Below, one piece after another: positions 17,977 through 43,887 of a stretch of 64,000 nucleotides of DNA; the first letter of the stretch is position 1; each line of letters begins with the position of its first letter. The stretch is taken from assembly GCA_007693585.1 (NCBI GenBank), contig REDH01000063.1, forward strand, positions 1-64,000. The letters are read 5' to 3'. This DNA comes from Deltaproteobacteria bacterium (GTDB lineage: Bacteria; Myxococcota_A; Bradymonadia; REDH01). The notes under the pieces were generated by a model. That model ran no database searches, had not been told where the DNA came from, and worked only from the letters and a program-made list of their open reading frames with translations. The position numbers and the translations under genes were made by a program.

Positions 17977-20900
17977 ATGGCGGAAGAATGGATGGCGAAG
18001 GTCGAGCGCTGGGAGGCCTCTCCCGGTGGCGAGTCGGAACACCTCGTCCTGCTCCGGGAAGCAGGCGCTGCGGGTCAGCGTGACGCGCTCGAGCGCCTTC
18101 TCCGCACGCCTGCCCGCGGGACGTCGCCCGAGGATGCTGTCCGGTATCTTCTCTCGCTGGACGCCGGGGATGCCGAGCCCGGACAGCGCGTGGAGCTGTG
18201 GCGTGGGATCGGTGGCGTCGCCTGTTCGGTGCCACGGGTGCTGGACGCCATCGAGGAGCACGCGGTCGCCACGGAGGATGCGGTCGCTCTGCTCGGCCTT
18301 GCGGCCGCCTGCATCGAGGCGTCCGTGGGTCCTGCCGGCCGAACGCTGGATGCGGCGCGACGCATCGTCGAGTGGCCGGAGCACGTGTCGCTGTCGATTC
18401 AGCTCGATGCGTGGTTGCATCTTGCGAAGGCCGAGGTTGTGAGCTGGCGGGATGCGCATGAGCACCTGCTACCGGTTGCCGAGGGAATGGAGGAGTCTGC
18501 GTTGCGACGCTTCGTTGACTTCATCCGGGACGCCGGGGACGCACGGTCCCTGCTCCCGCTTCTGGAGACTCGACGGCGCGGGTTGACCGATGCCGCGCCT
18601 GCCCGTCGCGTGCCGGTGTTGCTCGAACTGGCCGAGACCTCGTTCACGGCGACTCGGGACGGCGAGATTGCCGTGGAGTATTTTCGCGAGGCGCTGGAGG
18701 TTTCGCCGGCTGCGCTCGGCGACGTTCGGGAGCGGACCCGTGCGATGGTGTCCGAACACGCCGACCCGGTGCTGGTGGACTGGCTTCAATCGCTTGCTCG
18801 CCGGGGTGGATCGGCGCCGCGCCAGCTCCGGGAGGCGATGGAGGCAGCCGAGCTGGTTCCGGACGGTGCGCGCCGCCTCGAGGTGCTTCTCGGGCTGCTG
18901 CGGGATCTTGGCCCCGAGGTGGAGGCCGGCGATCGGCAGCAGCTCGTGGAGGCGGCGTTGGCCCTCGGAGTCGGTGCGCCGGCGGCCGTCGGTCGCGCCA
19001 TCGCCGAGACGCTTCCTCGTCTGGATCCGGAGGGGGCGAACGCACTGGCGGAGTTCTTCCTGTCCCGGGTCTGCGCGGCCGACGAGCCAGGAGCCGTGCA
19101 TGGCGTGCTCGAGGCGCAGCTCGAGCGGTGCAGTGACGAGCGTGTTCGGTCTGGCGTTCTGCTGGAACTCGCGCGAACCGAGGCGGTGGAGCTTGGTCGA
19201 CCTGATCTGGCTGCCGGACGCCTCCTTCCGCTGCTTGCCGATGCCCCCGGGCTGCTTGCGGAGTCGAAGGCCGGTGCGGAGCTGGTGCTCTCCCTGATGG
19301 AGCCGCTTGCGGAGCGCGATGCCGAGCTCGTTCTGGCCTTCCTGCTGGATGGTGAGCACTGGCAGGACGCGGTGGACCTCATGGCCGTGCTCCAGAGCCG
19401 GTCGGTCGACGCGTCGGAGACTTCGGAGCTGGCGCTGCGCTCCGCACGGATACTCGAGGAGCGGCTCGGCGATCCGGAGGGCGCCGCGGCGAGACTTCTG
19501 GAGGCCATGCAGGCCCGTCCCGAGGAGCGGATCGCGCTCGGCCGCTACCGGGACCTCATGCGGCGGCTGGATCGGGCCGAGGAGGAACACCTCGCCGTGG
19601 AGCGTCTGCTCCGGAGCGTCATGGATCCTGAGGAACGGAGTCAATTGCAACGCGATCGCGTGCAGCTTCTGCTCCGTCTCGGCCAGGCGGATATCGCGGT
19701 GCTGGAAGCGTGGCGGCTGCGTGCGTCGGATTCCACGATGCGGGAGGAAGCGGAGGAGCTGCTGCGGAAAGCCCTCGATGGGGAGGACATCGTCCCGAAG
19801 CTGCCCGGGTTGCTCGACCAGATGCGCGAGGTCCTCGACCAGGAAGCCGGCCCCGATTTTGCTCGGTGGCTTCTGGAGGTGCAGCCTGCCGAGACCCCGC
19901 TGGGGCGAGCGGCCGCACGCTACCTGGCCACGACGGGCGAGCTCGATGCGGAGGGTCTTCGTGGGTTCTGCAGGCAGCTTGGGAACGATGCGGAGACCGC
20001 TCCGGAGCGAGCGCGCCTTCTTCAGGCGATTCCGCCCGCCGAGCGCGACGAGGAGGACTGGCTGGCGCTGGCGCAGGTTCTGGAACAGCAGGGAGAGTCG
20101 GAACGGTCGGAGCAGGCGTTGTTCGACGGCTGGGACGCCCTGCCGGAGTCGAGTGTGCTGCTCGAACGGGCACGGGCGCTCGTGGATGCCATGGATGATC
20201 CTGCTGCCCGGGTCGGGTTCCTCGAACGCGCGGCTCGGCTGGAGTCGCGTGGTGTAGCGGATCGCGTCGCCGATCTCCGCGCGCTTTCTTCGACCTTCCG
20301 GGTGCTGGGGCGTCCCGATCTCGCGTTCGGGGTGGATGCGGAGACGCTCGCCCTCCAGCACTCGTCCGATGTCGTGGACGCGGTTCGTTCCTGGGCCCTG
20401 GAGAAGCGGGCGTACGGTCGGCTGTACGAAGTACTGGACGCGTCGGCCAATGCGGTCCCGGACGGGGCGGAGCGTGCGGAGCGCGAGCGCGAGCTGGGCG
20501 CCCTTTCGGAGGACCGTCTCGGACGAGGGGATCTTGCGGCGGCGCACTGGCGCAGAGCTCTGGCCCACGCAACGCCGGGCACGTGGGCGCGTCGCGAGGC
20601 GGCCGATCGACTGCTTGCGGGTGCGGGTGATCTGGATGACGTGATTGTGGTTCGCGCGCTGGAGGCGCTGCGGGCGGAGGTGGGGGACGAGAACGCGCTG
20701 GAGCGTGTGGTGTCGCTCGGCCGCGCGGCGGTGGCCGAGGAGTCGCTGGACGCGGTTCGGGCGCTCTGCGACGCGGTGGAGGAGCGGTTCGGTGCAGACC
20801 AGGCGGCACTGCGGCCGTTGCGGATCGACCGGAGCATCCTGCTTGGGGACCGCACCGCAGCGATCGAGGAGATGGACGGATGGCTCGCCGCTTCCGGAGA

Positions 20901-23900
20901 GCTTCCCGGAGTCTATCGCTCCCAGCGCTGGGCGTTGATGCTGACCTCGAAGGACCGGGTTGCTGCGGCAGTGAAGGAGGTCGCCGAGGCGTTGCTGGCA
21001 GACCCGGAGGACGAGGCGGTTCATGAGGTGCTGGTTGATCTCCCGGCGGAAGGTGGCATTCGCACGCGGATTGCCGGTTCGGTCGAGAGCGGGATCACGG
21101 GTGCGATGGCGGATGAGGATGCGTGCCGTGTGCTGTTGCGCGTTGGCGATCTTCACCATGCGGATGGGGCTCTGGCAGAGGCGGTGACGGCCTGGCGGAC
21201 CGCGCTGTCCCGGTCGCCCGGTGAGGAACGGCCGTTCTCGCGTCTTCGGAACGCATACGCGACCTCGGGCGACACGGAGGAGCTTCGTTCGTTGCTGCAG
21301 GAGCGGACCACGCGGGTGTCCGACGAACGGGAACGCTCGGAGCTGTTCCGGGAGCTGGCCCGGATAGCGCCTGATGATGCCGCGCGGGTCGTCGCGCTGC
21401 AGGGAGTGATCGCGGCGTTGCCGGCGGATCTCGATGCGCTGCGGGCGTTGTCACGATTGCTTCGGACGGCGGGACGGGAGGAGGAGCTCGCGGAGGTCCT
21501 GCGTACGCTTGGGAATGTCGAGGAAACTCCGGAGACGCGAAAGCGGCATCTCTTCAGTCTGGCACGGCTTCTGGCGGGGCCGTTGCGCGACGCCGACCGG
21601 GCCGCGGACGTGCTGGAGGAGATTCTCACGCTGGACCCTTCGGAGGAACGGGCGCTGCGTGATCTGGAGCGTTCGTGCCGTCAGCGGGACGACGTGGAGC
21701 GTCTCGCGCGGATCCTTCGGCTTCGTGTGGAGCACGAGGTTGATGATGACGCGCGGGTGGAGCTTTTGCGAGAGCTCGCGGGCCTCGAGGAGTCGAAGCT
21801 CGACAACCCGGACGGTGCGGTTCGGCACCTGGAGCGCATCATTGGGTTGGAGCCGGGGAACCTGTCGGTGCTCGAGGAACTGGCCCGTCTTCACGCCGCG
21901 GCGGAGCGCTGGGAGGAGCATCTGGGCGTGCTCGAGATGCTCGCAGACGCGTCCGGTCTCGTGGACCTGAAGGCGGAGGTGTTCCTTCGTGCGGCGCGCG
22001 TGCTCCATCACCGTCTGGACCGGCACGGAGAGGCCCTCGACCTGCTGGCGACCGCCGAGACGATGGTGCCGTTTCGCGCGGAGCAGGTGGAACTTGCGCG
22101 TCAGGTGGCGGAGAAAGGTGAGCTTTGGCGGGAGTGGGCCACGCTGCTGAAGCGCTTTGCAGACCGGGATCGCGACGAGCGTCGCCGTTCGGAGCTGTAT
22201 GCCGAGCTCGGTCGGGTGCTCCACCGGAGGCTGGAGGACCCGGTCACCGCCCTCGCGGTGCTCGGAGAGGCCTTCGACATGCTCGGGGAGCCGGGTCCAG
22301 TGCTCGACATGCTGGAGGAGGTGGCGGAGGCGTCGGAGAGTCGGCAGCAGCTCCTCCCCGTCTATGTGAAGCTCCGGGAGCGGGCCGGTCGCAACGAGGA
22401 GGTACTGTGGCGGGCCATGCACAGCTCGGCGCGCATCGCCGAAGAGGTTCTCGGGCTGCCGGAGAAGGCGTTCGACGTGCTGGCGGAGGCCGCCCGTCAG
22501 CGGGGTCTGCGTGCTCGCGCGGAAGTGGAGCTCGAGCGGATTGCCCGGGACCACGATCTGTGGACCCGTCATCGTGACTGGCTCGAGCGCCGTTGGCAGG
22601 AGGAGGGGGAGCCGGACGCCGAGACCGACGTGCTGCTCTCGAAGGCGCGCGTGGAAGAGCAGGAGCTGGACAACTGGGAGGCCGCCTTCGAGACGCTGAT
22701 CGCCGCCACACAGAGCGCGCCGACGAACGTGCGGGTTCGTTCCGAGCTGTATCGGCTGGCGGAGGCGCATGAGCAGTGGGAGATCGTGCTGCGGCTCATG
22801 GAGGCCCTGCAGGAGTCCGTGGAGACGAATGTCCGGGTCGAGTTGCTGCAGGAGATGGCGAACATCTTCGATACCCGGAAGCAGGCGCCGGGGAGTGCGT
22901 TCGAGCAGATTCTCCGTGCGTGGGAGCTCTCACCGGACGACGAGGCGCTGCGCACGAGGCTCCAGGAGCTGGCGCAACGTGCCGCGCGACAGGAGGATCT
23001 GCTGAAGGCGTGGCTCTGGGACGCGTCTCGAACGGAGGTGTCCGAGACGGCGGTTCCCGCGCTGGAACGGTCGTGGCGGCTCGCGGTCCAGCTCGGGGAT
23101 GGTCAGGTCGCGATCGCGGCGCTCGGGCGCCTGTGTCGCTACCGGCCGGAAGACGCCGCCTTGCGGGAGGAGCTGTCGGCGTTGGCGCTGCGATTCGACG
23201 AGCCGGAAGCCAGCCTGGTCGAGATGGAGGAGGCCCTCGCGTCGATGGAGGTTGGCGAGCTTCGTGTGTCGTGGTTGGCCGAGGCCGAGGGTCTCTGCGA
23301 ACGTGCCGGGATGGCGGACAGGCGTCTGGTGTTTCTCGACGAGCTGGTGGAGCGTTGTCCGGGCGAGGAGAAGTGGGAGTCGGCTCGGCGTGCGGTTCTG
23401 CTCGAGGTGGGTCGGGTGGATGCCCTGGAGGCTGACCTTCGCGCGAGTCTTGCCTCGTGCGAGGACGCCGTATCCGCCCTGCCCGTCGCTCTGGAGCTTC
23501 GCGACGTGCTGCTTCGCGAGCGGGGCGATCCGGAGCGTGCGGCGGAAGCTCTGGCGCTGGCTGCCGAGCGATTCCCCGGCGACGAGGAGATCCGGACCGC
23601 CTGGGTGGAGCACCTCGAACAGTACGAGATGTGGGAGCGGCTGGTTCGCGTTCTGGTGGAAGCGACGGACCGGATCGAGGATCCGGAGGTGCAGCGCGAG
23701 CAGCTTCTGCGGGCGGCGTCGATCGCCGACGAGTACCTGGGCAACGCGGAGCTGGTTCTGCTTGCCTCCGACGCCATTCTGGAGCGTTCGCCGAGTGATG
23801 TCGAAGCACTGGATCTGAAGGTGCGCGCGTTGGCCGCAGAGGGTTCATGGGGAGCCCATGTGAAGACGCTCGAAGCCATGGCCCGGTCCATCGCGGAGGG

Positions 23901-26823
23901 GGCCGCTGCGGCGACGGCGCTGGGGCAGGCTGCCCGCGTCGCGGAGACCGAGCTGGCGAGTCCCGAGCGCGCCATAGGCTTGTGGAAGCAGGCACTGGAC
24001 CGGGACCCGGAGTCGCTCAGGCCCTTGCTCGAGCAGGCGCGACTCCTCGCGGAGTCCGGAGCCGCGGAGGAGGCCGAGGGCCTGCTCGAGCGTGTCGTGG
24101 AAGCGGCCGGGGAGGATCCGAGTCGGGCCCGCGATGCGGCGGACGCGCTCGTTGCGTGGGCGAGAATTCGGTCGAGCCGCGGAGATGCGCTTCCGGAGAT
24201 TGACGGACTTCTGGAGCGGGCGAACGCGCTCGATCCGAACCATCAGGAAGCACGCGAGCTGCGACTGGCCCTTCTGGGCGAGGCGGGGGATGCAGGCGGG
24301 ATGCTGCGCGTGCTCGAGGAGCAGGTGGCGCAGGCTGCGAACGACGCTCAGCGCGCGCGGGCGCTGTGCGACCGCGCGAGCTGGAGAGTGCGCAACACGT
24401 CGGGTTACCGGATGGCGCTCAAGGACCTTCAGGACGCGCTGCAGCTCCTGCCGGACGACACCGAGATCCTGACGCTCCTGGCGGACACGCTGCTGCTGGC
24501 CGGGCATCCCACGGAGGCCGCCGCGCTGTATGGCGAACTGCTGGAGAGCGTCCCGGACGGCGCTCCCATTTCCGATGCAGCAGGTGCGGTGGTGCCCGGC
24601 GAGAGCCCGAGTCCGTCGATCGGGGTGCGACTCACCCTCCGGCTGGCCTACGCGTTCGAGCTCGCCGGAGCCTTGCAGGAGGCCTTCGACCACTACACGG
24701 ACCACAATCTGGAGCATCCCGACGACATCGCCGCGACGGCCGGTCTGGCGCGTGTGGCGGCTGCCCGGGGCAACGCGGCGGCGGCCGAGCGCTACGCGAG
24801 CGAAGTGTTCGCGTCCCTCGGCAGCATCGAACCGGGGGATGCCCTGGCGCCCCTCGCCTCCGGGCTGTTCCGCGTGCGCGCCCTCGCCGCCGAGGAAGAG
24901 CAGCGCTCCGACGCGGCGCTCGAGGCGTTGCTCGAGGCACTGAAGCTGGACCCCGCCACGGTGTCCGATCGTCTGGACTATGCGTTCGATGCGGCGTTGC
25001 GTTCCGAGGATGCGGCTCTTCGCGGACGTGCCCTCGATGCGCTGGCACGCCAGGACGTCGATCCGGAGGCGCGGGGCCGTGCCCTCGTCGAGGCGGCCGA
25101 GGCAAGGTTCCGAGACGATGCGCCGCGGGAAGAGATCCTGGCGGCCGTCACGCGTGCCCTCCTCGCCAGTACGCAGGCCGAGGTGCTCGACCCCATCTTC
25201 GCACTGCTGGACCGTCTCAATGCTCCGGACGCCATCGAACGCTTCCTCTCGCCGCTCATCGAGCACGCCGAGGGAGCCTATGCAGGGAGGCTGCTTCATG
25301 TGCGGTCCGGCGCAAGACAGCAGCTCGAGCGATTCGCCGAGGCGTTCGACGATGCCTGCGCTGCGCTCGAGAGGCTCCCCCATTCGGCCACCATTCTGCG
25401 GCAGGTCGTCTCGCTGGGCCGCGCGTCGGGTCAGTCCGAGCGCCTGGCCGAGTCGCTGCAGCGCTTCCTCGAGGAGACGCCTCCCGACGAGACGGGCACG
25501 GTGGCCCAGGCGCAGCGTGCGCTCGCCGAGGTGCTCCTGGACGATCTGAACCGACCCGAGGATGCGCGGATCTGGCTCGAGGCGCTTCGAGCCACCTTCC
25601 CGAACGATGTTCGCGTGCTCGAGTCACTGCTCCGGATTCTCGACGAGCACGAGGAGGGGGACGACGCCGTCGCTCTCGATGTGGCGTCCGATCTCGTCCG
25701 CCTCGGAGCCCTGAGCGAGACCGTTCTGCGTACCCTGGAGCGCGTGTACTACGCCAGCGATCACATCGACGGCGTGCTCCAGGTGCTCCAGGTGCTTCGA
25801 CTGGCCGGTGCTGCCGATGACGAGTCCATTGAGCTGCTGGAGTCGCTGCCCGCCAACCTTCCGGCCCTCGGAGACGGTCTGTTCACCGGCGAGTTCTGGG
25901 ATCGCACGTTGCGCCCGGCTCCACTCGACGCGGGCGTGATTCAGGTCGTTGCCGACGCTACCCTCGCCGTGCTCCCCCATGCAGCCGTCCCGCTCGATGA
26001 TGCATGGACCCCCCCGGCAGCTGACCTGGCTGCGGCGAAGGTGTTCCGCGATCTGGCACCCGCATTTGGCCTTCCCGACGCCCTCTTCCTTCTCGACACC
26101 GCGCCCGGCGCACGGGTGCGTGCGATTGCAAGCGCCGAAGGGCGTGTGGTTCTGGTCCCGCAGGAGCTCGTGGCCGAGGAGCAGGACGAGGCGCTGCTCC
26201 GCTTCGTTCTGGCACGCGGCCTCGCCCTCGCACGCAACGAGAGCCTTCTGCTCCACACACTCTCCCCGTTCGAGTTCCTCGCGTTCCTGGAGGCGGCGCT
26301 CGAACCGCTGCTCACGGACGCCGAGCAGCAAGAACCGGGGGACGCTGCACTCGCCGAGAAGGTGCGGGTGTGGCGCGAGCGCATCGGTCCTGCGGACAGG
26401 CCCCCGGCGAACCGAAGGCAGCCCCGGCATCGCCTCCCGGCCGCTGGCACATGGCGCGAGCTCATGAGCGCCTCCGCCGTGCAGGCGGGAGTGCTCGCGA
26501 GCTACGAGAGCCGGAGGACGTTCCACCGCCTTCGCGAAGCCGCAGAGGAGCCTGCGCCCTCGAGCGTGGTGTCGCTCCGGGATCTCATCGGTCGACAGCC
26601 GGAGCTTCGCGCGATCGTGGTCTTCCTGCTGTCGCCCCGCTATCTGGAAGCCCGTCGGGAACTCGGACTCGCCTTCAGTGACGCCGCAGCCGTGGTGAGT
26701 GCTCGCGCAGATGGGGACGATGACGAACCCGCCGAACACACGGCAGTCGGTGCGCCCGCTCCCGAAGGAGGCGATCCGCCGGAGGATGCGGACTCGTCCA
26801 ACGACGAGGCCTCTGACGAGTAG
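17977..26823 (+). CDS. Giant TPR-repeat protein (2948 residues)
   Basis: Starts at ATG 17977 with AAGGA upstream and no signal peptide, so it is probably cytoplasmic. Almost the whole chain is helical hairpins rich in Leu, Ala, Glu and Arg with TPR-like spacing. The clearest TPRs are near residues 1230-1700 (LARLHAAAERWEEHLGVLEML, AVLGEAFDMLGEPGPVLDML) and 2140-2200 (ALKDLQDALQLLPDDTEILT, LLADTLLLAGHPTEAAALYG). The last 330 residues differ: a beta/alpha segment, then RFVLARGLALARNESLLL and SPFEFLAFLEAALEPLL, then a charged Asp/Glu tail. The same C-terminal block occurs in the 1630-residue protein at 38017-42909. Giant TPR scaffolds are typical of Myxococcota; the partner is unknown. The stretch reads open without frameshift for 8.8 kb. 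Confidence 0.88.
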   Translation: MAEEWMAKVERWEASPGGESEHLVLLREAGAAGQRDALERLLRTPARGTSPEDAVRYLLSLDAGDAEPGQRVELWRGIGGVACSVPRVLDAIEEHAVATEDAVALLGLAAACIEASVGPAGRTLDAARRIVEWPEHVSLSIQLDAWLHLAKAEVVSWRDAHEHLLPVAEGMEESALRRFVDFIRDAGDARSLLPLLETRRRGLTDAAPARRVPVLLELAETSFTATRDGEIAVEYFREALEVSPAALGDVRERTRAMVSEHADPVLVDWLQSLARRGGSAPRQLREAMEAAELVPDGARRLEVLLGLLRDLGPEVEAGDRQQLVEAALALGVGAPAAVGRAIAETLPRLDPEGANALAEFFLSRVCAADEPGAVHGVLEAQLERCSDERVRSGVLLELARTEAVELGRPDLAAGRLLPLLADAPGLLAESKAGAELVLSLMEPLAERDAELVLAFLLDGEHWQDAVDLMAVLQSRSVDASETSELALRSARILEERLGDPEGAAARLLEAMQARPEERIALGRYRDLMRRLDRAEEEHLAVERLLRSVMDPEERSQLQRDRVQLLLRLGQADIAVLEAWRLRASDSTMREEAEELLRKALDGEDIVPKLPGLLDQMREVLDQEAGPDFARWLLEVQPAETPLGRAAARYLATTGELDAEGLRGFCRQLGNDAETAPERARLLQAIPPAERDEEDWLALAQVLEQQGESERSEQALFDGWDALPESSVLLERARALVDAMDDPAARVGFLERAARLESRGVADRVADLRALSSTFRVLGRPDLAFGVDAETLALQHSSDVVDAVRSWALEKRAYGRLYEVLDASANAVPDGAERAERERELGALSEDRLGRGDLAAAHWRRALAHATPGTWARREAADRLLAGAGDLDDVIVVRALEALRAEVGDENALERVVSLGRAAVAEESLDAVRALCDAVEERFGADQAALRPLRIDRSILLGDRTAAIEEMDGWLAASGELPGVYRSQRWALMLTSKDRVAAAVKEVAEALLADPEDEAVHEVLVDLPAEGGIRTRIAGSVESGITGAMADEDACRVLLRVGDLHHADGALAEAVTAWRTALSRSPGEERPFSRLRNAYATSGDTEELRSLLQERTTRVSDERERSELFRELARIAPDDAARVVALQGVIAALPADLDALRALSRLLRTAGREEELAEVLRTLGNVEETPETRKRHLFSLARLLAGPLRDADRAADVLEEILTLDPSEERALRDLERSCRQRDDVERLARILRLRVEHEVDDDARVELLRELAGLEESKLDNPDGAVRHLERIIGLEPGNLSVLEELARLHAAAERWEEHLGVLEMLADASGLVDLKAEVFLRAARVLHHRLDRHGEALDLLATAETMVPFRAEQVELARQVAEKGELWREWATLLKRFADRDRDERRRSELYAELGRVLHRRLEDPVTALAVLGEAFDMLGEPGPVLDMLEEVAEASESRQQLLPVYVKLRERAGRNEEVLWRAMHSSARIAEEVLGLPEKAFDVLAEAARQRGLRARAEVELERIARDHDLWTRHRDWLERRWQEEGEPDAETDVLLSKARVEEQELDNWEAAFETLIAATQSAPTNVRVRSELYRLAEAHEQWEIVLRLMEALQESVETNVRVELLQEMANIFDTRKQAPGSAFEQILRAWELSPDDEALRTRLQELAQRAARQEDLLKAWLWDASRTEVSETAVPALERSWRLAVQLGDGQVAIAALGRLCRYRPEDAALREELSALALRFDEPEASLVEMEEALASMEVGELRVSWLAEAEGLCERAGMADRRLVFLDELVERCPGEEKWESARRAVLLEVGRVDALEADLRASLASCEDAVSALPVALELRDVLLRERGDPERAAEALALAAERFPGDEEIRTAWVEHLEQYEMWERLVRVLVEATDRIEDPEVQREQLLRAASIADEYLGNAELVLLASDAILERSPSDVEALDLKVRALAAEGSWGAHVKTLEAMARSIAEGAAAATALGQAARVAETELASPERAIGLWKQALDRDPESLRPLLEQARLLAESGAAEEAEGLLERVVEAAGEDPSRARDAADALVAWARIRSSRGDALPEIDGLLERANALDPNHQEARELRLALLGEAGDAGGMLRVLEEQVAQAANDAQRARALCDRASWRVRNTSGYRMALKDLQDALQLLPDDTEILTLLADTLLLAGHPTEAAALYGELLESVPDGAPISDAAGAVVPGESPSPSIGVRLTLRLAYAFELAGALQEAFDHYTDHNLEHPDDIAATAGLARVAAARGNAAAAERYASEVFASLGSIEPGDALAPLASGLFRVRALAAEEEQRSDAALEALLEALKLDPATVSDRLDYAFDAALRSEDAALRGRALDALARQDVDPEARGRALVEAAEARFRDDAPREEILAAVTRALLASTQAEVLDPIFALLDRLNAPDAIERFLSPLIEHAEGAYAGRLLHVRSGARQQLERFAEAFDDACAALERLPHSATILRQVVSLGRASGQSERLAESLQRFLEETPPDETGTVAQAQRALAEVLLDDLNRPEDARIWLEALRATFPNDVRVLESLLRILDEHEEGDDAVALDVASDLVRLGALSETVLRTLERVYYASDHIDGVLQVLQVLRLAGAADDESIELLESLPANLPALGDGLFTGEFWDRTLRPAPLDAGVIQVVADATLAVLPHAAVPLDDAWTPPAADLAAAKVFRDLAPAFGLPDALFLLDTAPGARVRAIASAEGRVVLVPQELVAEEQDEALLRFVLARGLALARNESLLLHTLSPFEFLAFLEAALEPLLTDAEQQEPGDAALAEKVRVWRERIGPADRPPANRRQPRHRLPAAGTWRELMSASAVQAGVLASYESRRTFHRLREAAEEPAPSSVVSLRDLIGRQPELRAIVVFLLSPRYLEARRELGLAFSDAAAVVSARADGDDDEPAEHTAVGAPAPEGGDPPEDADSSNDEASDE

Positions 26824-26970: not shown

Positions 26971-27732
26971 CTACTCCGATGGTTCGGTATCCGCGGCCGC
27001 ACTCGGTGGAACCACCGTAACCCATCTTCTGAGCGAATCGAGGTCACTGGGCCGGATTCCGTCCACGCCGAGAAGACTCTCGATCGCGACGAATCCCTCC
27101 ATCTCGTCGCGCTGCCGGAGAATCTCCTCGGCGATCGCCATGTTGATTCCGGGAACGCGGAGAAGTCGATCGCGGCTCGTTGTGTTGAGGTCTTCGCGAA
27201 CCGTGATCCACTGGCGGATCCCCTCCACGGTGGCCGGGCCGATGCCACTGACACGTTCGATGTCGTCCGCGCTCTCGAAGGGACCGTTCTGTTCTCGCTC
27301 GGTGATGATGGCCTGCGCGCGGGTGGGGCCGATTCTCGGCAGCGCCACCAGTTCATCGAGCGACGCGAGGTTGACGTTCACGGGCGCGATGGGCGTGCGC
27401 TCTGGTGGGTCGACGTGCGTGGAAACGATGTGGGGCCCTACCTCGGTCCCGTCGCAGCCCTGGACGTCGCCGGCGCGAATGCGATGGCAGAGCTGGGACA
27501 GGATCCCCGGGCCGATACCACTGACCCGCTGCAGGTCGGCCGGCGTGGCGAAGTGACCGTTCCGATCCCGATCACGGAGGATGGCGTCGGCTCGTGCTGG
27601 GCCAATGCCCGGGAGGGACTCCAGCTGCGGTCCGGTGGCCGTGTTGATGTCGACGAGGTCCGCGCCGCGGACAGTGCTCGGGGGCAGCAGGAGAAGGACC
27701 AGCAGCAGGAGGACATGGGCGAATCTGGTCAT
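26971..27732 (-). CDS. Exported ComEA-like protein with three helix-hairpin-helix domains
   Basis: A 253-residue protein with a signal peptide (FAHVLLLLVLLLLPPSTVRG, cleaved before ADL). Three HhH units follow: DINTATGPQLESLPGIGPAR, NVNLASLDELVALPRIGPTR and DLNTTSRDRLLRVPGINMAI, each with a second hairpin (VSGIGPGI, VSGIGPAT, VDGIRPSD). ComEA binds incoming DNA outside the inner membrane during natural transformation but usually has one such unit. It lies 14 nt downstream of a ComEC-type metallo-beta-lactamase lipoprotein, so the pair probably acts on extracytoplasmic DNA. The ATG at 27732 is used; a GTG directly before it is possible. Confidence 0.85.
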   Translation of the reverse strand: MTRFAHVLLLLVLLLLPPSTVRGADLVDINTATGPQLESLPGIGPARADAILRDRDRNGHFATPADLQRVSGIGPGILSQLCHRIRAGDVQGCDGTEVGPHIVSTHVDPPERTPIAPVNVNLASLDELVALPRIGPTRAQAIITEREQNGPFESADDIERVSGIGPATVEGIRQWITVREDLNTTSRDRLLRVPGINMAIAEEILRQRDEMEGFVAIESLLGVDGIRPSDLDSLRRWVTVVPPSAAADTEPSE

Positions 27733-27746
27733 CACGAACCAGGGGT

Positions 27747-28766
27747 TCAGGGCAGCTGCTGGGGATGGGCGCTCAGGATCTCCCCGTTCGAACGGACTTC
27801 AACGTAACCATGGATGTCGGTGCGGTAAATGGCCTCCACGCCAGCTGCTTCCAGCCGCTGGAGGGTCTCGGTGCCGGGGTGTCCGTAACTGTTGCCACGT
27901 CCGACACCGATGAGTGCCAGTCGCGGACGAACCGCCGCAAGGAAGGCTTCGGTGCTGGAGTGGTTGGAGCCGTGATGGGCGACCTGAAGCACATCGACGG
28001 GTCGCAGGTGCCCTTCCGCGACGAGTCTCTGCTCGGTGGCGGCCTCGGCGTCTCCCGTGAGGAGGAAGGTGTGATCGCCGAAGTGGATGTAGAGCACGAT
28101 GCTGTTGGAGTTCACATCGGATCGGGTTCCACTGAGGAATGGCGGGCTGGGGAAGATGATCTCCGCTTCGGTGAAGCGGTCGATGCGCACGCGCCTTCCC
28201 GCTTCGGCGAGGAACACCGGGACCTCGAGTTCTTCGAGCCGGTTGAGGAGCCGCAGATAGACATTGCTGGTGTGGGGGAAACCGGGATCCAGAAACCGGG
28301 CTGTGGGGAACTCCTCGATGATGTCGATGAAACCGCCGAGGTGGTCGTTGTGAGCATGGGACATGACGGCGAGGTCGACGCGTTCCACGCCGACCTGACG
28401 CATCAGGCTGCGGATGTTCTCTCCGCCGCCGCGGGTTCCGGCGTCGTAGACGACGACGCGGCCTTCCGGGCTGATCAGGAACATGCCGAGTCCCTGGCCC
28501 ACATCGGCGAGGAAGAGCCGAAGGACGTCGTCGGGCCCTGGTGTATCGCGCGCAGGACGTTGTGTGGCCGTCTCGGCGAGCGCCGCAGGAGCGACCGTGG
28601 GCGAGGCTTCCCCCGTTCCGGAGGGCGCGAGCTCGCCAGCGTGCGTGCGATTGGCCTCCTGCGTCGGCGCGGTCGTGTGGGAAGACTGCGAGGCGGGTGC
28701 GCAGGCCGCGCCGAGCATGAGCCCGACGGTCAGGACGAGGCGAATGATGGCTGAATGTGGGGTCAT
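27747..28766 (-). CDS. ComEC/Rec2-type metallo-beta-lactamase lipoprotein
   Basis: A 339-residue lipoprotein (VGLMLGAAC, Cys 22), then a Thr/Ala-rich linker, then a metallo-beta-lactamase fold: FLADVGQGLGMFL, SHAHNDHLGG (metal ligands), NSNSIVLYIHFGDHTFLLTGD and VAHHGSNHSS. This pattern is that of the C-terminal domain of ComEC, thought to degrade the non-transported DNA strand. The integral membrane ComEC channel is absent here, so this is a stand-alone secreted form. The start at 28766 gives a GGAG at good spacing and a compact lipoprotein signal; an ATG at 28784 adds six residues. It is cotranscribed with the ComEA-like gene. Confidence 0.85.
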   Translation of the reverse strand: MTPHSAIIRLVLTVGLMLGAACAPASQSSHTTAPTQEANRTHAGELAPSGTGEASPTVAPAALAETATQRPARDTPGPDDVLRLFLADVGQGLGMFLISPEGRVVVYDAGTRGGGENIRSLMRQVGVERVDLAVMSHAHNDHLGGFIDIIEEFPTARFLDPGFPHTSNVYLRLLNRLEELEVPVFLAEAGRRVRIDRFTEAEIIFPSPPFLSGTRSDVNSNSIVLYIHFGDHTFLLTGDAEAATEQRLVAEGHLRPVDVLQVAHHGSNHSSTEAFLAAVRPRLALIGVGRGNSYGHPGTETLQRLEAAGVEAIYRTDIHGYVEVRSNGEILSAHPQQLP

Positions 28767-28919
28767 GGGCTCCGGCGGGGTCATGGAGCGGCGCGATGCT
28801 GGCGCCGGTGAGAACCCGATCGAACGAAGCCATGCTCGCTGACGTGCGTGTCGGGCTGTTGACGGCGAGAAGGACTCTGACTGCAGCCTGGCGGTTCGTT
28901 GGTCATGCCCTGCGCACCG

Positions 28920-30954: not shown

Positions 30955-31719
30955 TCAATCCCGCGACCGGACACCGAGGCGAGCCACTTCCCCCTGCAGA
31001 GCCGACAGGACCTCCGACGCGCGGCCCGGCAGGAAGATGTCCGTGACGCCATCGGTCAGCGCGCTCGGCTCGAGGTTGACCTCGATGACGCTGGCCCCGG
31101 CTTCACGGGCCATCACCGGCAGGGATGCCGCAGGCTCCACGAGTCCGCTGGTGCCGACCACCAGAACCGTTCGCGCGGACGCCGCGAGTGCTTCGGCGCG
31201 CTCCCTGGCCTCTCGGGGGATGATCTCCCCGAAGAGCACCACGGTTGGCTTCAGCGGCCGGCCACAGGCGCAGTAGGGGACCCCGTCCTCGTCGGCGGGG
31301 TGGCTACCGGGATACCGGGCGCCACACCACAGGCAATGCAGGAGCTGGGCGTTGCCGTGGTAGTCGACGACCCGCCGGGACCCGGCCCGCTGATGCAGGT
31401 TGTCGATGTTCTGGGTCACCACCCCCTGCACGACCCCTGCGCGCTCGAGCTCCATGAGGCTATGGTGTGCGGGATTGGGCTCCGACCGGGACAGTACCCG
31501 GTGCACTTCCCGGAACATGGCCCACACCCGGGCGGGCGCGGCCCGGAACGCATCGATCGTGGCGTGGTCCATCGGGTCGAAGCGCTCCCAGAGCCCACCA
31601 CCGCTGCGGAAATCCGGGATTCCGCTCTCCACCGAGATGCCCGCGCCCGAGAACGCCACGACCCCCCCCTCGGCGATGCGTGCGGCGGCCTGTTCCAATG
31701 ATGGGGTGATTCTGCTCAT
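30955..31719 (-). CDS. cobB: Sirtuin, NAD-dependent protein deacylase
   Basis: A 254-residue Sir2-family enzyme that removes acyl groups from lysine using NAD. Visible motifs: VAFSGAGISVESGIPDFRS (NAD binding), TQNIDNLHQRAG, the catalytic His in VVDYHGNAQ, a zinc site formed by CLWC and CACG, and LVVGTSGLVEPAASLP. Its ATG overlaps the stop of the upstream MopE-like lipoprotein gene (ATGA), so it is translationally coupled to a secreted-protein gene, which is an odd pairing. The upstream in-frame extension was rejected as non-coding. The class assignment (deacetylase or other deacylase) is open. Confidence 0.93.
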   Translation of the reverse strand: MSRITPSLEQAAARIAEGGVVAFSGAGISVESGIPDFRSGGGLWERFDPMDHATIDAFRAAPARVWAMFREVHRVLSRSEPNPAHHSLMELERAGVVQGVVTQNIDNLHQRAGSRRVVDYHGNAQLLHCLWCGARYPGSHPADEDGVPYCACGRPLKPTVVLFGEIIPREARERAEALAASARTVLVVGTSGLVEPAASLPVMAREAGASVIEVNLEPSALTDGVTDIFLPGRASEVLSALQGEVARLGVRSRD

Positions 31720-38016: not shown

Positions 38017-41000
38017 TCAGACGCCGGCCTCGAGCGGAAGTGGTCGCCGCGCGGCGCCAACCTCGAACCGGGCCTGTTCGAAGCGATCGGAGAGGGCGAA
38101 CCGGAGCAGGTCGGAGATGCGCTGTTCGGCCTCTCGCGCTCCGGCGGTCTGGCGGATGACGGCCACCGATGCGCTGAGGTCTCCGCAGCAGAGGAGGCCG
38201 ACCCGGTCGGAGAAGGCGACCAACGCCTGGACCCACCCGTGGTGTCGTTCGACGACCTCGGGCGCGTCCCGCAGGGCCTGAGCTGCTTGCCTTCGCGCAC
38301 CGGCGAGCAGAATTCCGCCGATCTCCTCCCCGAGCATGGCATCCCGGTAGGTATCGTCCCCGAGCACCCTACCGGCGATCGCCTGCCAGAGTTCGCAGAT
38401 GCCCCCGTCGCCGGCATGGAGGAAGATCCCGGTTCCCAGCCAGGCCTGTGCGGCGGCGACGCCGGCGAGGTGTTGGAGGACGGCTTCGTCGTCCGACTCG
38501 CAGAGATCGCGCGGGACGACGACGTTGCCGTTGTCGAGTGGTTGGACCCGTTCGCCGCCATCGACGACCCAGATGCGGGGCGGCGCGGCGTCGAGCCAGG
38601 CGCACGCCTGTTCGAGGGCGTCGGAGAAGAGGGGTGCCTGCTCGGCGCGGAAACGTGCGGCCCCGATCTGCCGTCTGTCGGGCAGCCGATCCGCGAACAC
38701 CCGTTCGCCGAGTGCGGTGGCTTGCTGGAGGGCATCCAGGTGCCCCTGGGGGAGATGGTCCCGTCCGAGGAGATGCCATGCGACGGCGCGCTCCATCGTT
38801 CGCTGTGGCGTGGCGGCGGCGGCACCTCGGACGCGCTGTCCTGCGAGCGCTGCCCTGGCCTGCCGCACGATGCGGAGGCGCGCGCCGTCCTGGAGTTGTT
38901 CACAGGCGTCCTCGAACACGGCGAGTCCCTGTTCCCAGATGACGTTCGACACGTCGGGAAGCGAGAGCATGTCGAGAAGCCGACGGAGCGCGTCGGCTCC
39001 GCGGTCGGGTTGGCGGGCGATGGCGCGTGCCTCCCGCAGGCGGATGTCGGCGCTGTCGGGCCGTCCGCGCCGGGCGTGTCCGAAGGCCTCCTCGGCGCGC
39101 CGCCAGTCCGTCAGCACGGTCGCGTTCAATTCGCCGACGTAGACCCAGAGGTCAGTGGCCCGGTCGGGCGCATCGTCGAGCGTCCCCTCGAGCAGGAGCT
39201 GGGCGAGGTGACCGGCGAACGCGCCGGCGTCGTCCAGATGGCGGTGGTGGTCCTCGAGTCCGGCGAGGACCTCCTCGCTCTCGGGGAAGAGGCGGAAGAG
39301 CTCCCAGAGGAGGGAGCGTGCTCCCTCCACGTCGCCGAGCCTTTCTCCCCGGAGACGGGCGAGGAGCAACCAGTGGTGGAGATCGTTCGTTTCGGGGGGG
39401 CCCTGAAGGGCTTCGGAGAGGAGCCCGGCCGCCCGCTGCGGGTTGCCACCTCGCGCATGAGCATGGGCCAGACGCAGGGCCTGTGCGGGGGCGTTGTCGG
39501 AGAGTGTGCAGGCATCCTCGAGACAGCTGATGGCGCGTCGCATGTCGCCACCGCGACGTTCGTGGAGCTCGGCGAGTCGTCCGAGCACCGCGATGCGCTC
39601 CGCTCCGGGGACTCCTCCGTCCAGGCAGGATTCAAGGGTTTCGCGGGCGTCGTCGAGGAGGTCGTGTCCGGCTTCCAGCCGGGCCTTCTCGAGCGCGATC
39701 CGCGCGTCGGCCGGAACATGGACGGCCGCATCCCGCAGGATGATGACGGCTTCGTCGACGTGGCCGCCGGATACGAGCGACCGAGCTCCGCGCAGGGCAA
39801 GCCCCACGCGGACGGCCGCGTCGAGGTCCCGGACCACCGTCAGGTGCTCCCGGATGGCCGAGGCGAGCGCGTCGTTCTCCCGGGCTGCTTCGAGCCGATC
39901 GTAGAGGTCGCGACGGAGCGGGTGCTCATGGAGCCCGAGTCCGGCGGCTTCCACCAGCGCACGACGGCTTACCTCGGGAGCGATCAGCGGGTCTTCGGCG
40001 AGGTCGAGGAGGGCCTGCAGGCGGAGCACCGGGGTATCGAGGGCATCCACGTGCTGCAACCAGACCGACGCCAGATCGTCCTGGCGTCCGAGCGCGCGGG
40101 CTGCATGGATGGCGAGCCGGCGTTCCACGTCGGTGGCCGTGCCCTGCAGCAGCTCTCCCACGGTGACCGAGCCAGCGGAGATGCGGGCGAAGAGCTCCCG
40201 TTCGTCGGCCCCGGCGAATGCGACGTCCCAACGCCCGAATTCGAGAGCCAGCAGCGACCGCAGCGGTTGTAGCCCAACACCTTCCCATGTCTGGGGGGAG
40301 GCGCACCCCTGCTCGAGCGAGGACCACTCGACGAGCAGCGCATGAAGGGCCCCGCGCACGTTCGTCGAGCGAAAGCCATCCGCGGCCGCGACCTCACCGA
40401 AGGCGAGGGCGTGCTGCGCACAGACCTCGCCTGCGACCACGTCGCCCGGCCACTCGTCGGCGATGGTGGTCCAGAATTCCAGCCGCTTTTCAGCATCATC
40501 GACGAGACGTTCGGCCAGAAGGCGCAGAACGCGATGGCGGAGTTCGGGGACCGAGTCCGCGACCTGTTCGAGGACGGCCACGCACTGCTTGCGGACGGCC
40601 GAGTCAAGTCCCGGGAAGGTCCAGAGGCGATCGAGGGCATCCACGGCGAGACCGGTGCAGACGGGCTCACCGAGGGACTCGAGGTATCCTTCGAAGGCTT
40701 CGGCCGGCTCATTCGCGGCGAACTCGAGCAGCGAGGCGATGCGCCAAGCCAGCCGAGCCCCGGATTGCGGGTCGGTCGCTGTCGCGTGCCGTTCGCGGAG
40801 TACAGCGAGGGTGCTCTCGGCGTCGCCCTCGGCCTCGTGGATTCTCTCGAGCCAGATCAACGCGAGCTCGCGGTGGCGTGGGGCGCTGTCCCGAAGGCGG
40901 ACAAAGCATTCGCGGGCGCGCTCGAGGTTGCCGACATCGACCGCGTAGAGCTCGGCCAGCCGGAGCAGCGTGGGAGCGCGTTCGCGATCATCGACGACGG

Positions 41001-42909
41001 TGCGAAGCGCCTGTTCCAGGAGCTGCGCGACGTCGTCATGGCGCTGCTGTTGGGCACAGAGGTCCACAAGTCCGGCGATCGCACGGGGGTGCCCGGCCTG
41101 CTCCCTCAGCGCGGTGCGCCACCAGCTCTCGGCGGCTACCGGATCGCCGAGCGGGCCCAGACAGATGGAGGCGGCCTGACACGCCACCGCAGCGCGGGCA
41201 CCCGGGTCGGATTCGAACTGGGTGAACTCGGCTTCCAGCAGTGCGAGCCGCTCCTCATGGCGCGACTGCCGCTCGAGCAGGGAAGCGAGCTGTCCCACAG
41301 CGGCGCTGTGTTGCGGGTAGCGTTCGATCAGTGTCGCGAGGAGCTCGGCGGCGAGATCCCCATTGCGCAGTTCATGCTGCGCGACGGTGGCCGCCCGGAC
41401 CAGCCAGTTTCCGCGTTCTCGGGGGGAGCCGATCTGTTCGGCGGCGGTGACGAGGTGGTCCACGAGGTCGACGTGCCGTCCCTGGGACTCGAGCAGCTCG
41501 GCGAGCAGCTCGATCGCCTCACGGTTCGGTTGGTCGTCGAGGATGGCGCGGAGGCAGGATTCGGCGTCCTCTGTGCGCTGAAGGCGCTGTCGGGAGAGGC
41601 GCGCGAGCCGTAGCCGCAGCCGGATGCGTTCGACCGGTGCGTCGATGACCCCGATCCACTCCTCGAGGTGGCGCGCCTGCGCCTCGAAGTCGCCGGAGCG
41701 GTCGAGGGCGTCGTCGAGGAGGCGTCGTGCGGCGAGGTGTGCGGGATCCTCCCGGATTGCCTCCTGCGCAAGGTCAATGACCGTTTGCGCCACGCGGGCA
41801 TCCTTCGCAAGCGCGAGGCCCATGCGGGTGAGCAGGTCGGCGCGCTCCACGTTGCTCGCGGCAAGCTCGAGGCGCGCGCCGAGCGCTTCCACGGCGTCGG
41901 CGGAGTCGAGGCTTCCCTGGAGTCCGCGCGCCACGGAGAGATAGCTGGCCGCGGCCACGGGCGCGGAGTCCCCTCCGCGGAGAGCCTCTCCCCAGGCCTG
42001 CAGGGCGCCGGGGCGGTCTCCGAGTTTCCACGCGCGGAGCTGGCCGAGCAGGACCTGTGCCCGTCCGCGCTCTGCTGGGTCGTCGAGCCGGGACACCGCG
42101 TCCGAGAGCAGCGCTTCGGCGGTGGCGGCGTCATCCTGATCGAGGGCGTCTCGCACGAGCGGGCGGAGCGCGTCGGCGGTGGCTTCCGCCTCCAGGGAGA
42201 CCCCGTACCAGTCGAGTGCCGCGTCGCCGGCGTCCACGTCGTGATGCGCGGCGGCAGCGGCGATGGCGAGGGCTGCGCTGGCCGCAAATCGATCGCCTTC
42301 CTCGCCCAGGATCTCGGCCTCTTCGCCCCACAACCTGGCGCGGAGGCGATGGGCTTCGGCCGGGCGGCCGAGGACATCAAGGGCTTCGGAGCGTGCTGCG
42401 GCGATCGCGAGCTGGACCTCACGGGAGAGGTCAGAGGCGATTGGCTGCAGTGCATCGAGAAGCGCGAGGACGTCTGCGGGTTGCTGGGTGTGACGCAGCG
42501 CGAGTCGTGCGGCGCCGAGTCCGGCCCATGCCCGCTGGAGGTCGTCACCGGCGCGTTCGAATTCGCGCTCGTAGAGCACGGTCACGGCGGCGGGGTCGCC
42601 GTCTCGTCGGGCCCGGCGGCGAAGGCCACCGAAGGCGCGCGGGTCCGCGTCGGGGTGCTCGGCGGCCTGCTCCTGGAGCACGAAAGCCCGGTCCGTGTCG
42701 CCGAGACCGAACTCGGCCGCTTCTGCGGCGCCCGCGAGGAAGCGCCCTGCCCCGGCCGAATCTCCGAGCAGCCATGCGTCGCGCACCCTGCCCTGCATGA
42801 GGTGCTCGAGGAAGCGAACGGGGCTTCGGGTGTCGCTGTGCGGAACGGTCATCTCCGCCCGACGGTCACGGGCGCTCGCGGTGGCTGTCCTGGACTTCTC
42901 GTTGCTCAT
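38017..42909 (-). CDS. Large TPR-repeat protein (1630 residues), paralogue of the 2948-residue protein
   Basis: No signal peptide; long arrays of TPR-like helical hairpins rich in Ala, Leu, Arg and Glu (SYLSVARGLQGSLDSADAVE, AELLATLIERYPQHSAAVGQ, LLEQALRTVVDDRERAPTLL). The last 220 residues break the pattern (PRIWVVDGGERVQPLDNGNV, LQHLAGVAAAQAWLGTGIFL, HAGDGGICELWQAIAGRVLG) and resemble the C-terminal block of the giant protein at 17977-26823. That block has the look of a degenerate zincin-type fold without HExxH. It lies 21 nt downstream of a membrane metallopeptidase gene in one operon with proC, the YggS-type gene and maf, so it may scaffold or regulate that peptidase. Confidence 0.87.
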   Translation of the reverse strand: MSNEKSRTATASARDRRAEMTVPHSDTRSPVRFLEHLMQGRVRDAWLLGDSAGAGRFLAGAAEAAEFGLGDTDRAFVLQEQAAEHPDADPRAFGGLRRRARRDGDPAAVTVLYEREFERAGDDLQRAWAGLGAARLALRHTQQPADVLALLDALQPIASDLSREVQLAIAAARSEALDVLGRPAEAHRLRARLWGEEAEILGEEGDRFAASAALAIAAAAAHHDVDAGDAALDWYGVSLEAEATADALRPLVRDALDQDDAATAEALLSDAVSRLDDPAERGRAQVLLGQLRAWKLGDRPGALQAWGEALRGGDSAPVAAASYLSVARGLQGSLDSADAVEALGARLELAASNVERADLLTRMGLALAKDARVAQTVIDLAQEAIREDPAHLAARRLLDDALDRSGDFEAQARHLEEWIGVIDAPVERIRLRLRLARLSRQRLQRTEDAESCLRAILDDQPNREAIELLAELLESQGRHVDLVDHLVTAAEQIGSPRERGNWLVRAATVAQHELRNGDLAAELLATLIERYPQHSAAVGQLASLLERQSRHEERLALLEAEFTQFESDPGARAAVACQAASICLGPLGDPVAAESWWRTALREQAGHPRAIAGLVDLCAQQQRHDDVAQLLEQALRTVVDDRERAPTLLRLAELYAVDVGNLERARECFVRLRDSAPRHRELALIWLERIHEAEGDAESTLAVLRERHATATDPQSGARLAWRIASLLEFAANEPAEAFEGYLESLGEPVCTGLAVDALDRLWTFPGLDSAVRKQCVAVLEQVADSVPELRHRVLRLLAERLVDDAEKRLEFWTTIADEWPGDVVAGEVCAQHALAFGEVAAADGFRSTNVRGALHALLVEWSSLEQGCASPQTWEGVGLQPLRSLLALEFGRWDVAFAGADERELFARISAGSVTVGELLQGTATDVERRLAIHAARALGRQDDLASVWLQHVDALDTPVLRLQALLDLAEDPLIAPEVSRRALVEAAGLGLHEHPLRRDLYDRLEAARENDALASAIREHLTVVRDLDAAVRVGLALRGARSLVSGGHVDEAVIILRDAAVHVPADARIALEKARLEAGHDLLDDARETLESCLDGGVPGAERIAVLGRLAELHERRGGDMRRAISCLEDACTLSDNAPAQALRLAHAHARGGNPQRAAGLLSEALQGPPETNDLHHWLLLARLRGERLGDVEGARSLLWELFRLFPESEEVLAGLEDHHRHLDDAGAFAGHLAQLLLEGTLDDAPDRATDLWVYVGELNATVLTDWRRAEEAFGHARRGRPDSADIRLREARAIARQPDRGADALRRLLDMLSLPDVSNVIWEQGLAVFEDACEQLQDGARLRIVRQARAALAGQRVRGAAAATPQRTMERAVAWHLLGRDHLPQGHLDALQQATALGERVFADRLPDRRQIGAARFRAEQAPLFSDALEQACAWLDAAPPRIWVVDGGERVQPLDNGNVVVPRDLCESDDEAVLQHLAGVAAAQAWLGTGIFLHAGDGGICELWQAIAGRVLGDDTYRDAMLGEEIGGILLAGARRQAAQALRDAPEVVERHHGWVQALVAFSDRVGLLCCGDLSASVAVIRQTAGAREAEQRISDLLRFALSDRFEQARFEVGAARRPLPLEAGV

Positions 42910-42930: not shown

Positions 42931-43887
42931 TCAATCGCTGGTCGCGCCGAATGTCGCATCGTCGGGATCGAAGTCAAAAATCCGCGCCTCGGCGCGCTCC
43001 ATCTCGGCGAGGCGCGCCCGGTCTCGCGCCCGTTTCCTGCGCAGTACCCAGAGGAAGAGGAAGGCGAGGAGGGTCCATGCCATTCCTCCCCCGGCGGCGA
43101 CGGGGATCCATCGGGCTCTGCTGCGGACCTGTTCTTCCCACGCCGCATAGGCGCTGCCCGTGGAGCGGCCGGTGCGGTGGAGGAAGGCGTGTTCCCAGGT
43201 CCATCCGTTCTCTCGCATGTCCCGGAGGATGTAGCGAAAGACGTCGTCCCCGTGGGCTTCGAGGATGAACCGGACGAGCGCCGTGGACTGTGCGTAGGCG
43301 AGCTCGGCGGTGGCGGCCCCGTGCGGGAAGCCGTTCTCGAGCTCCGCGAAGTCGAGGTGTCGACCGAGGACGTTGGCGCGCAGGAGGACGGTGGCCCTGT
43401 CGAGTCCGTACTGCTCGGCGATCTGGACAGCCTGTCCTTCGTCGAACCAGCGAGGGACGCGTGCGTCGCCTGCGGCGATGGCCACGGCCACGTGGGACAA
43501 CTCGTGGACCATGGTGCGTTCCCACTCGGGGTTCCTTGGAGCCAGGAGGATGACGCGGCGGCTGGGGATCGCGAGGCCTGCGGCCCACTCGGGGGAGCGT
43601 GCGGGCAGTCCTTCCCGTCGAAACCAGTCGTGCAGGTCGGTCTCGATGTGAACGTGAAGGAGTTCACCGTCGGGCGCGCCGATGGACTCCTGTACCCTGG
43701 ACCACTCGTTTTCGATCACGCGCGCGGCCTCTCGGACGAATCCGGCCATGCCTCGGGGAGCGTCGATGGAAAAACGGGTGTTCTGGACGGTGATGACGGC
43801 CGGTTCAAGACGGGTCGATGCGCTCGCGGGTGCGGCGAGGAGCAGGAGGAGCGTCGCCAAGCCGAGGATGCGGCATGCGGAACTCAT
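42931..43887 (-). CDS. Membrane-anchored metallopeptidase of the MA-like type
   Basis: A 318-residue protein with a signal peptide (ILGLATLLLLLAAPASA). The catalytic site HELSH near residue 130 (TMVHELSHVAVAIA) is followed by VPRWFDEGQAVQIAEQ, whose Glu is the likely third zinc ligand. A C-terminal membrane helix (GGGMAWTLLAFLFLWVL) and a basic tail (RRKRARDR) place the peptidase domain outside the inner membrane. This is the arrangement of Peptidase_MA-like gluzincins. Its start overlaps the proC stop (ATGA) and it lies just before the large TPR gene. The substrate is unknown. Confidence 0.83.
   Translation of the reverse strand: MSSACRILGLATLLLLLAAPASASTRLEPAVITVQNTRFSIDAPRGMAGFVREAARVIENEWSRVQESIGAPDGELLHVHIETDLHDWFRREGLPARSPEWAAGLAIPSRRVILLAPRNPEWERTMVHELSHVAVAIAAGDARVPRWFDEGQAVQIAEQYGLDRATVLLRANVLGRHLDFAELENGFPHGAATAELAYAQSTALVRFILEAHGDDVFRYILRDMRENGWTWEHAFLHRTGRSTGSAYAAWEEQVRSRARWIPVAAGGGMAWTLLAFLFLWVLRRKRARDRARLAEMERAEARIFDFDPDDATFGATSD

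Follow-up and report, generated by a model that had tools for sequence, protein, structure and literature searches.

A C-terminal domain with a predicted degenerate M48-type peptidase fold is shared by large TPR proteins and the GltI-type giants of Myxococcota

Two very large TPR proteins, g1 and g2, encoded 11.2 kb apart on opposite strands of a 64,000-nucleotide stretch of DNA from a Bradymonadia genome (the window), end in homologous C-terminal domains, as confirmed by comparison of sequence profiles. The same domain closes giant TPR proteins encoded close to gltG, which gene order identifies as the gliding scaffold GltI/AgmK, and predicted structures are best read as a degenerate, presumably inactive M48-type peptidase fold. 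The features of the window concerned are the following:

17977..26823, + strand: g1, giant TPR protein of 2948 aa, with the TPR array at about residues 1-2630
25873..26712, + strand: C-terminal putative pseudo-peptidase domain of g1, residues 2633-2912
26713..26820, + strand: acidic tail of g1 after the domain, presumably disordered
38017..42909, - strand: g2, TPR protein of 1630 aa
38020..38790, - strand: C-terminal putative pseudo-peptidase domain of g2, residues 1374-1630
42931..43887, - strand: peptidase-MA membrane protein of 318 aa, directly upstream of g2 (Pfam Peptidase_MA_2, E 2.2e-16)

Genes were called with a home-made predictor, and some gene names were assigned by eye. The g1 frame runs from the ATG at 17977 to the stop codon at 26821-26823; a longer frame from 17503 is possible, the extra part of which overlaps a divergent DnaJ-like gene. 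No signal peptide was seen in g1 by eye. Pfam recognized TPRs in both g1 (TPR_19, E 1.1e-7) and g2 (TPR_6, E 1.3e-7). Elsewhere in the window, inspection by eye found a row of TonB-, ExbD-, and ExbB/TolQ-like genes, which make up a proton-channel motor set and lie 16 kb away from g1 (1-1434, - strand), a ComEA-like helix-hairpin-helix protein beside a ComEC-like metallo-beta-lactamase lipoprotein (26971-28784, - strand), and a cysteine-rich lipoprotein with repeated C-x-E-x-G-W-x-x-C-S units (31716-33890, - strand).

A terminal domain on TPR proteins of different length

In single-sequence searches, the C-terminal block of g1 seemed to be an orphan. It retrieved itself and a chance match (E 0.145) from its own genome, two weak matches outside this genome, both in genome G009 (2 of 38 genomes searched, its own included), and no matches in a scan of the genome collection. 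BLASTP detected no similarity between the C-termini of g1 and g2 (best C-terminal piece, 41 residues, E 2.3), and Pfam reported nothing above cut-off for either block. Orthologue profiles changed this picture. A profile of 15 g2-type C-termini (A1) matched a profile of g1 and its G009 relative (A2) over 214 columns with E 6.8e-10 and a probability of 96.6, and it matched the g1 block alone with E 1.8e-6. A third set, consisting mostly of proteins of 4,000 aa (A3), matched both other sets (E 5.3e-8 and 1.8e-17), and a 16-row profile of mostly glt-type C-termini (A5) matched g1 with E 7.3e-6 and g2 with E 4.4e-10. Controls gave E-values of at least 0.086: ten 280-residue segments of g1, the last of which overlaps the start of the block, scored 0.086-0.67, six shuffles of the g1 block 0.13-0.9, and the reversed block 0.12. 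The weakest link counts against the relationship: compared on its own with profile A2, which has two rows, g2 reached only E 0.0079. The computed alignment places RFVLARGLALAR over LQHLAGVAAAQAW, the register in which an earlier note on this DNA had paired these two stretches when it proposed that both proteins end in a similar block, and the profile comparison that it suggested thus bears out this proposal.

The earlier note had also envisaged a shared terminal domain on scaffolds of different size, and members of about 740, 1,700, 3,000, and 4,000 aa were indeed found. A joint profile (A4) detected five proteins in the genome of the window: g2 (1,637 aa in this search) and g1 (3,110 aa) on contig C74, which holds the window, a 4,043-aa protein on contig C83, a 735-aa protein on contig C24, and, weakly, a 959-aa protein on contig C93. 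Relatives of the g2 C-terminus, counting any paralogue, occur in 32 of the 38 related genomes, its own included (E <= 0.01), and with the joint profile the domain was detected in 37 of them; the single miss is a genome that is 77% complete (G005). Beyond these, the sampled phylum is Myxococcota, as GltG has the same coordinates in phylum genome G213 and in a named Polyangium fumosum record. There, the joint profile found the domain in 77 of 143 genomes at E <= 1e-6; in a different draw of 143 genomes, the A5 profile found it in 106 at E <= 1e-4. A clade of members of about 1,500-1,950 aa is widespread in the phylum.

The domain is almost always terminal: of 148 unique copies that are near-complete, 147 lie within 60 residues of the end of the frame. 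Only the G009 relative of g1 departs from this, with a low-complexity tail of about 340 residues at the same place as the g1 tail; 41 residues remain in g1 beyond the profile-matched part. The two proteins are collinear over residues 1068-2891 in a whole-length comparison (E 7e-31, 23%). A quick tree of 61 of the 148 domains (62% identity filter, SH-aLRT only) separated a side with GltI, kinase-linked, and short members from a side with g2 and g1 (split support 97). On the g2 side, g1 pairs with the G009 protein (91), although long end branches make its place unsure; the 735-aa member of the same genome also falls on the g2 side. A 748-aa member in genome G010 is preceded by genes for MlaD, a transglutaminase-like protein, and, by eye, an MlaE-like protein (locus L079, 2586-9338), which suggests a link of this member to an Mce/Mla-type envelope system. 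The 735-aa member in the genome of the window has a similar transglutaminase-like gene upstream, at a distance of about 2.8 kb.

Sequence databases offered no name for the domain. NCBIfam was empty for three C-terminal blocks, and a PDB sequence search with the block returned only two AI-designed TIM barrels (E 0.012 and 0.015, 38 positions), which were dismissed as chance matches. No description of this C-terminal domain was found in the open-access papers on AgmK/GltI that were searched. The domain is thus uncatalogued, being absent from Pfam and NCBIfam as tested, whereas GltI and its multiple copies are already known.

Giant members beside gltG and the standing of g1 and g2

In Myxococcus xanthus, the gene order is gltD-E-F-G-H-I, with GltI listed as a TPR protein of 4,132 aa in Table 1 of Luciano et al. 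2011 (PMC3169522); gltI carriers named there include Sorangium, and some genomes hold several copies. Upstream of the gene for the 4,043-aa protein, the genome of the window encodes a 1,098-aa TPR protein, a 424-aa TPR protein matching NCBIfam GltE (E 2.2e-35), and a 573-aa protein with Pfam FHA and TonB_C domains matching NCBIfam GltG (E 1.7e-91), both matches lying under NCBI's cut-off. The order of this cluster agrees with the gltD-gltE-gltG-...-gltI arrangement given in PMC3169522. We refer to frames of at least 3,300 aa as giants; among the domain matches listed there are 83, for 79 of which a GltG match is listed as well and for 4 of which it is not. In 65 of these 79, GltG shares contig and strand with the domain and is located 10.4-14.8 kb upstream of it, one giant gene away, and the same spacing is found in Sorangium cellulosum So ce26 and So0157-2, Minicystis rosea, and Polyangium fumosum. 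In 13 of the 14 remaining cases GltG was found only on another contig, and in one (G110) it is 18.9 kb away. In these 65 cases, the giant member is encoded one gene downstream of gltG, and on this gene order we therefore assign the giant form as GltI/AgmK, a scaffold of the Agl-Glt gliding machine, the copy of this genome being the one on C83.

GltG itself was detected at E <= 1e-20 in 126 of 143 genomes, compared with 106 of 143 for the domain, so that some glt systems lack a recognizable copy. Genomes with a strong GltG match in which the domain was not recognized include G040, G044, G052, G060, and G075; GltI may be absent there, may be divergent, or may lack this end. GltG matches above NCBI's cut-off occurred in 0 of 143 and 0 of 377 genomes, and a search for Myxococcaceae-type GltG over the 377 genomes gave no match.

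The earlier note had regarded the partners of these proteins as unknown, which is too pessimistic for the giant members: as GltI encoded close to gltG, they would belong to the scaffold of GltI and GltG that links the Agl motor with the MreB track, as outlined in a review (PMC13104615). According to PMC12288465, it is untested in what way GltG and GltI pass through the envelope.

Both g1 and g2 carry the C-terminal domain of the glt-linked giants, as recognized with the A5 profile. Like the giants of the family, GltI/AgmK of M. xanthus is described in PMC3169522 as a giant TPR protein without a signal peptide, downstream of gltG; g1 (2,948 aa) and g2 (1,630 aa) differ from it in being shorter, below the GltI size of 3,300-4,200 aa, and in lying outside a glt cluster. 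The tie to M. xanthus GltI is drawn from gene order and description, the domain having been read in the glt-linked giants of other genomes. Among the gene calls of the window, judged by eye, no FHA-TonB neighbour of g1 or g2 was found, and no GltG match occurs on contig C74. With no glt cluster around g1 or g2, the role of GltI cannot be transferred to them. The idea that g1 is the GltI orthologue was rejected, since the genome has its own GltI on C83 and, in the tree, the partner of g1 is the G009 protein (91), both standing with g2.

Predicted fold and the place of the active site

AlphaFold2 modelled the g1 block with a pLDDT of 86.6 and a pTM of 0.87, as helices followed by strands 69-74, 83-87, and 90-96, a helix at 106-119, and further helices. 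The elements in the model of the g2 block (pLDDT 72.3) follow a similar order, although the middle is poorly modelled (121-166, largely under pLDDT 50). M48-type peptidases came out on top for both models in VIA-align. The g1 model matched BepA (Z 9.4), 6sar (9.0), 3c37 (8.8), Ste24p (7.8), and BlaR1 (7.5), and the g2 model matched 3c37 (8.4), BepA (7.2 and 7.1), and Ste24p (6.2), where Z-scores of 7-9 are not far above the background quoted for the tool. Minigluzincins and ZMPSTE24 scored 6.2-7.1 with the g1 model, and scores outside the M48/M56/minigluzincin group dropped to 4.8. The best match of the g1 block, BepA/YfgC (PDB 6ait, 6sar), is an M48 metallopeptidase with TPRs and thus pairs the same two folds. 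In BepA, a periplasmic enzyme, the peptidase is N-terminal and the TPR part C-terminal, whereas in the present family the TPRs come first and HExxH is absent. The M48-type zinc peptidase Q74D82 of Geobacter (PDB 3c37), best match of the g2 block and third of the g1 block, differs in that identity is 12% and the present family is devoid of zinc ligands.

None of the 148 domain sequences contains HExxH. M48 peptidases have the pattern E-L-A-x-V-L-A-H-E-L-A-H, and we presume that it sets the register of helix 106-119 over H-E-x-x-H. In this inferred register, R-G-L-A-L (R-G-x-x-L) takes the place of H-E-x-x-H in g1, the column of the first histidine is K or R in 116 of 148 sequences, and histidine is not among the letters listed for the column of the second. 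The domain is best read, from these models, as a degenerate, presumably inactive M48-type peptidase fold. The earlier description of the block as a metallopeptidase-like helical bundle that has lost HExxH stands as regards the metallopeptidase likeness and the missing motif, but not as regards a pure helical bundle, the g1 model being an alpha+beta fold with three strands before the "active-site" helix.

It is improbable, but worth weighing, that the domain is instead a TPR cap or a helical end piece and resembles M48 peptidases only through a common arrangement of helices; the family would then be real and the dead protease would not. The Foldseek E-values are poor (BepA as the best match of the g1 model, at only 0.063, and nothing better than 1.1 for the g2 model), Pfam peptidase models gave no match at E <= 10 against 76 family members, and the VIA-align scores lie close to the quoted background. 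However, two separate models built from different first sequences both rank M48 peptidases (BepA, 3c37, Ste24p) at the top, the g1 scores are 6.2-9.4 within the M48/M56/minigluzincin group and drop to 4.8 beyond it, and the strand-strand-helix order together with the motif E-L-A-F-x-x-G-[KR]-x-L matches the M48 pattern, all of which favors the degenerate peptidase.

Proposed roles of the paralogues

Directly upstream of g2 lies the gene of a peptidase-MA protein that, judging from its sequence, looks active: HELSH and WFDEG are followed by a hydrophobic stretch (by eye) and a short C-terminal tail. Including the window, 12 loci had sufficient flanking sequence, and in nine of them a peptidase-MA gene stands directly upstream of the g2-type gene; it was not found beside this gene in the other three (L135, L136, and L140). 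The peptidase-MA profile was built from eight of the nine positive loci, so that only L080 is independent. Past the membrane stretch, the tail has a conserved motif, about D-Y-D-x-S-R-Y-P-L-P-G in class-mates and about D-P-D-D-x-T-F-G in the family of the window. In genome G013, a DivIVA gene (E 4.4e-30) precedes the pair of peptidase-MA and g2-type genes; DivIVA-similar genes were also seen by eye in G126, G027, and G024, and none in the window.

We consider it probable that g1 and g2 are paralogues of GltI, that is, cytoplasmic TPR scaffolds that dock through a dead-peptidase end and are each adapted to a separate machine of the envelope. Their shared domain measures about 260 residues and would descend from an M48-type zinc peptidase or share its fold, with the zinc-binding and catalytic residues lost. 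The TPR superhelix would act as a long arm whose length can be adjusted, and the pseudo-peptidase at its end would bind a protein or peptide and so dock this arm to one machine. GltI would dock in the scaffold of motor, GltG, and MreB, g2 would partner the peptidase-MA membrane protein encoded just upstream, and g1 would serve a further complex, distinct from those of GltI and g2. We infer the cytoplasmic location, the docking role, and the choice of partner, as well as any assembly by g1 and g2.

A role of g1 and g2 as sensory or regulatory proteins in kinase-linked TPR signalling, rather than as scaffolds, appears even less probable to us than a mere TPR cap. It is prompted by one form of the family in Sorangium cellulosum So ce26, a fusion of protein kinase, TPRs, and the domain (locus L203, 2-4798, + strand; Pkinase E 7.9e-15; 1,599 residues covered), but Pfam found no kinase domain in g1 or g2, and the review PMC13104615 describes GltI, the member that is understood best, as a scaffold. 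That the domain has remained a zinc enzyme through a non-canonical site, using for instance the E and H of an R-P-E-H stretch after the helix, is very improbable: columns 120, 122, and 123 are R (85), E (81), and H (82) of 148, in only part of the family, but they read R, E, and S in g1 and W, G, and T in g2, and HExxH is missing from every domain.

Returning to the docking scaffold with a dead-peptidase end, it is tempting to speculate, though this is rather improbable, that the pseudo-M48 pocket reads peptides. A possible ligand in the g2 branch is the conserved C-terminal tail of the peptidase-MA protein, whose binding would join a giant cytoplasmic TPR arm to an active periplasmic protease through the inner membrane, and the same dock on GltI may hold the gliding scaffold. 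If true, a single dead protease, once domesticated, would serve several trans-envelope machines of Myxococcota as their common plug.

GltI is among the least understood parts of the gliding machinery, a scaffold of 4,000 residues annotated only as TPR. A defined end domain gives a small soluble piece, a precise deletion, and partner candidates to work with, and its predicted fold suggests a binding groove. The paralogues elsewhere suggest that the GltI-type scaffold has been reused outside motility.
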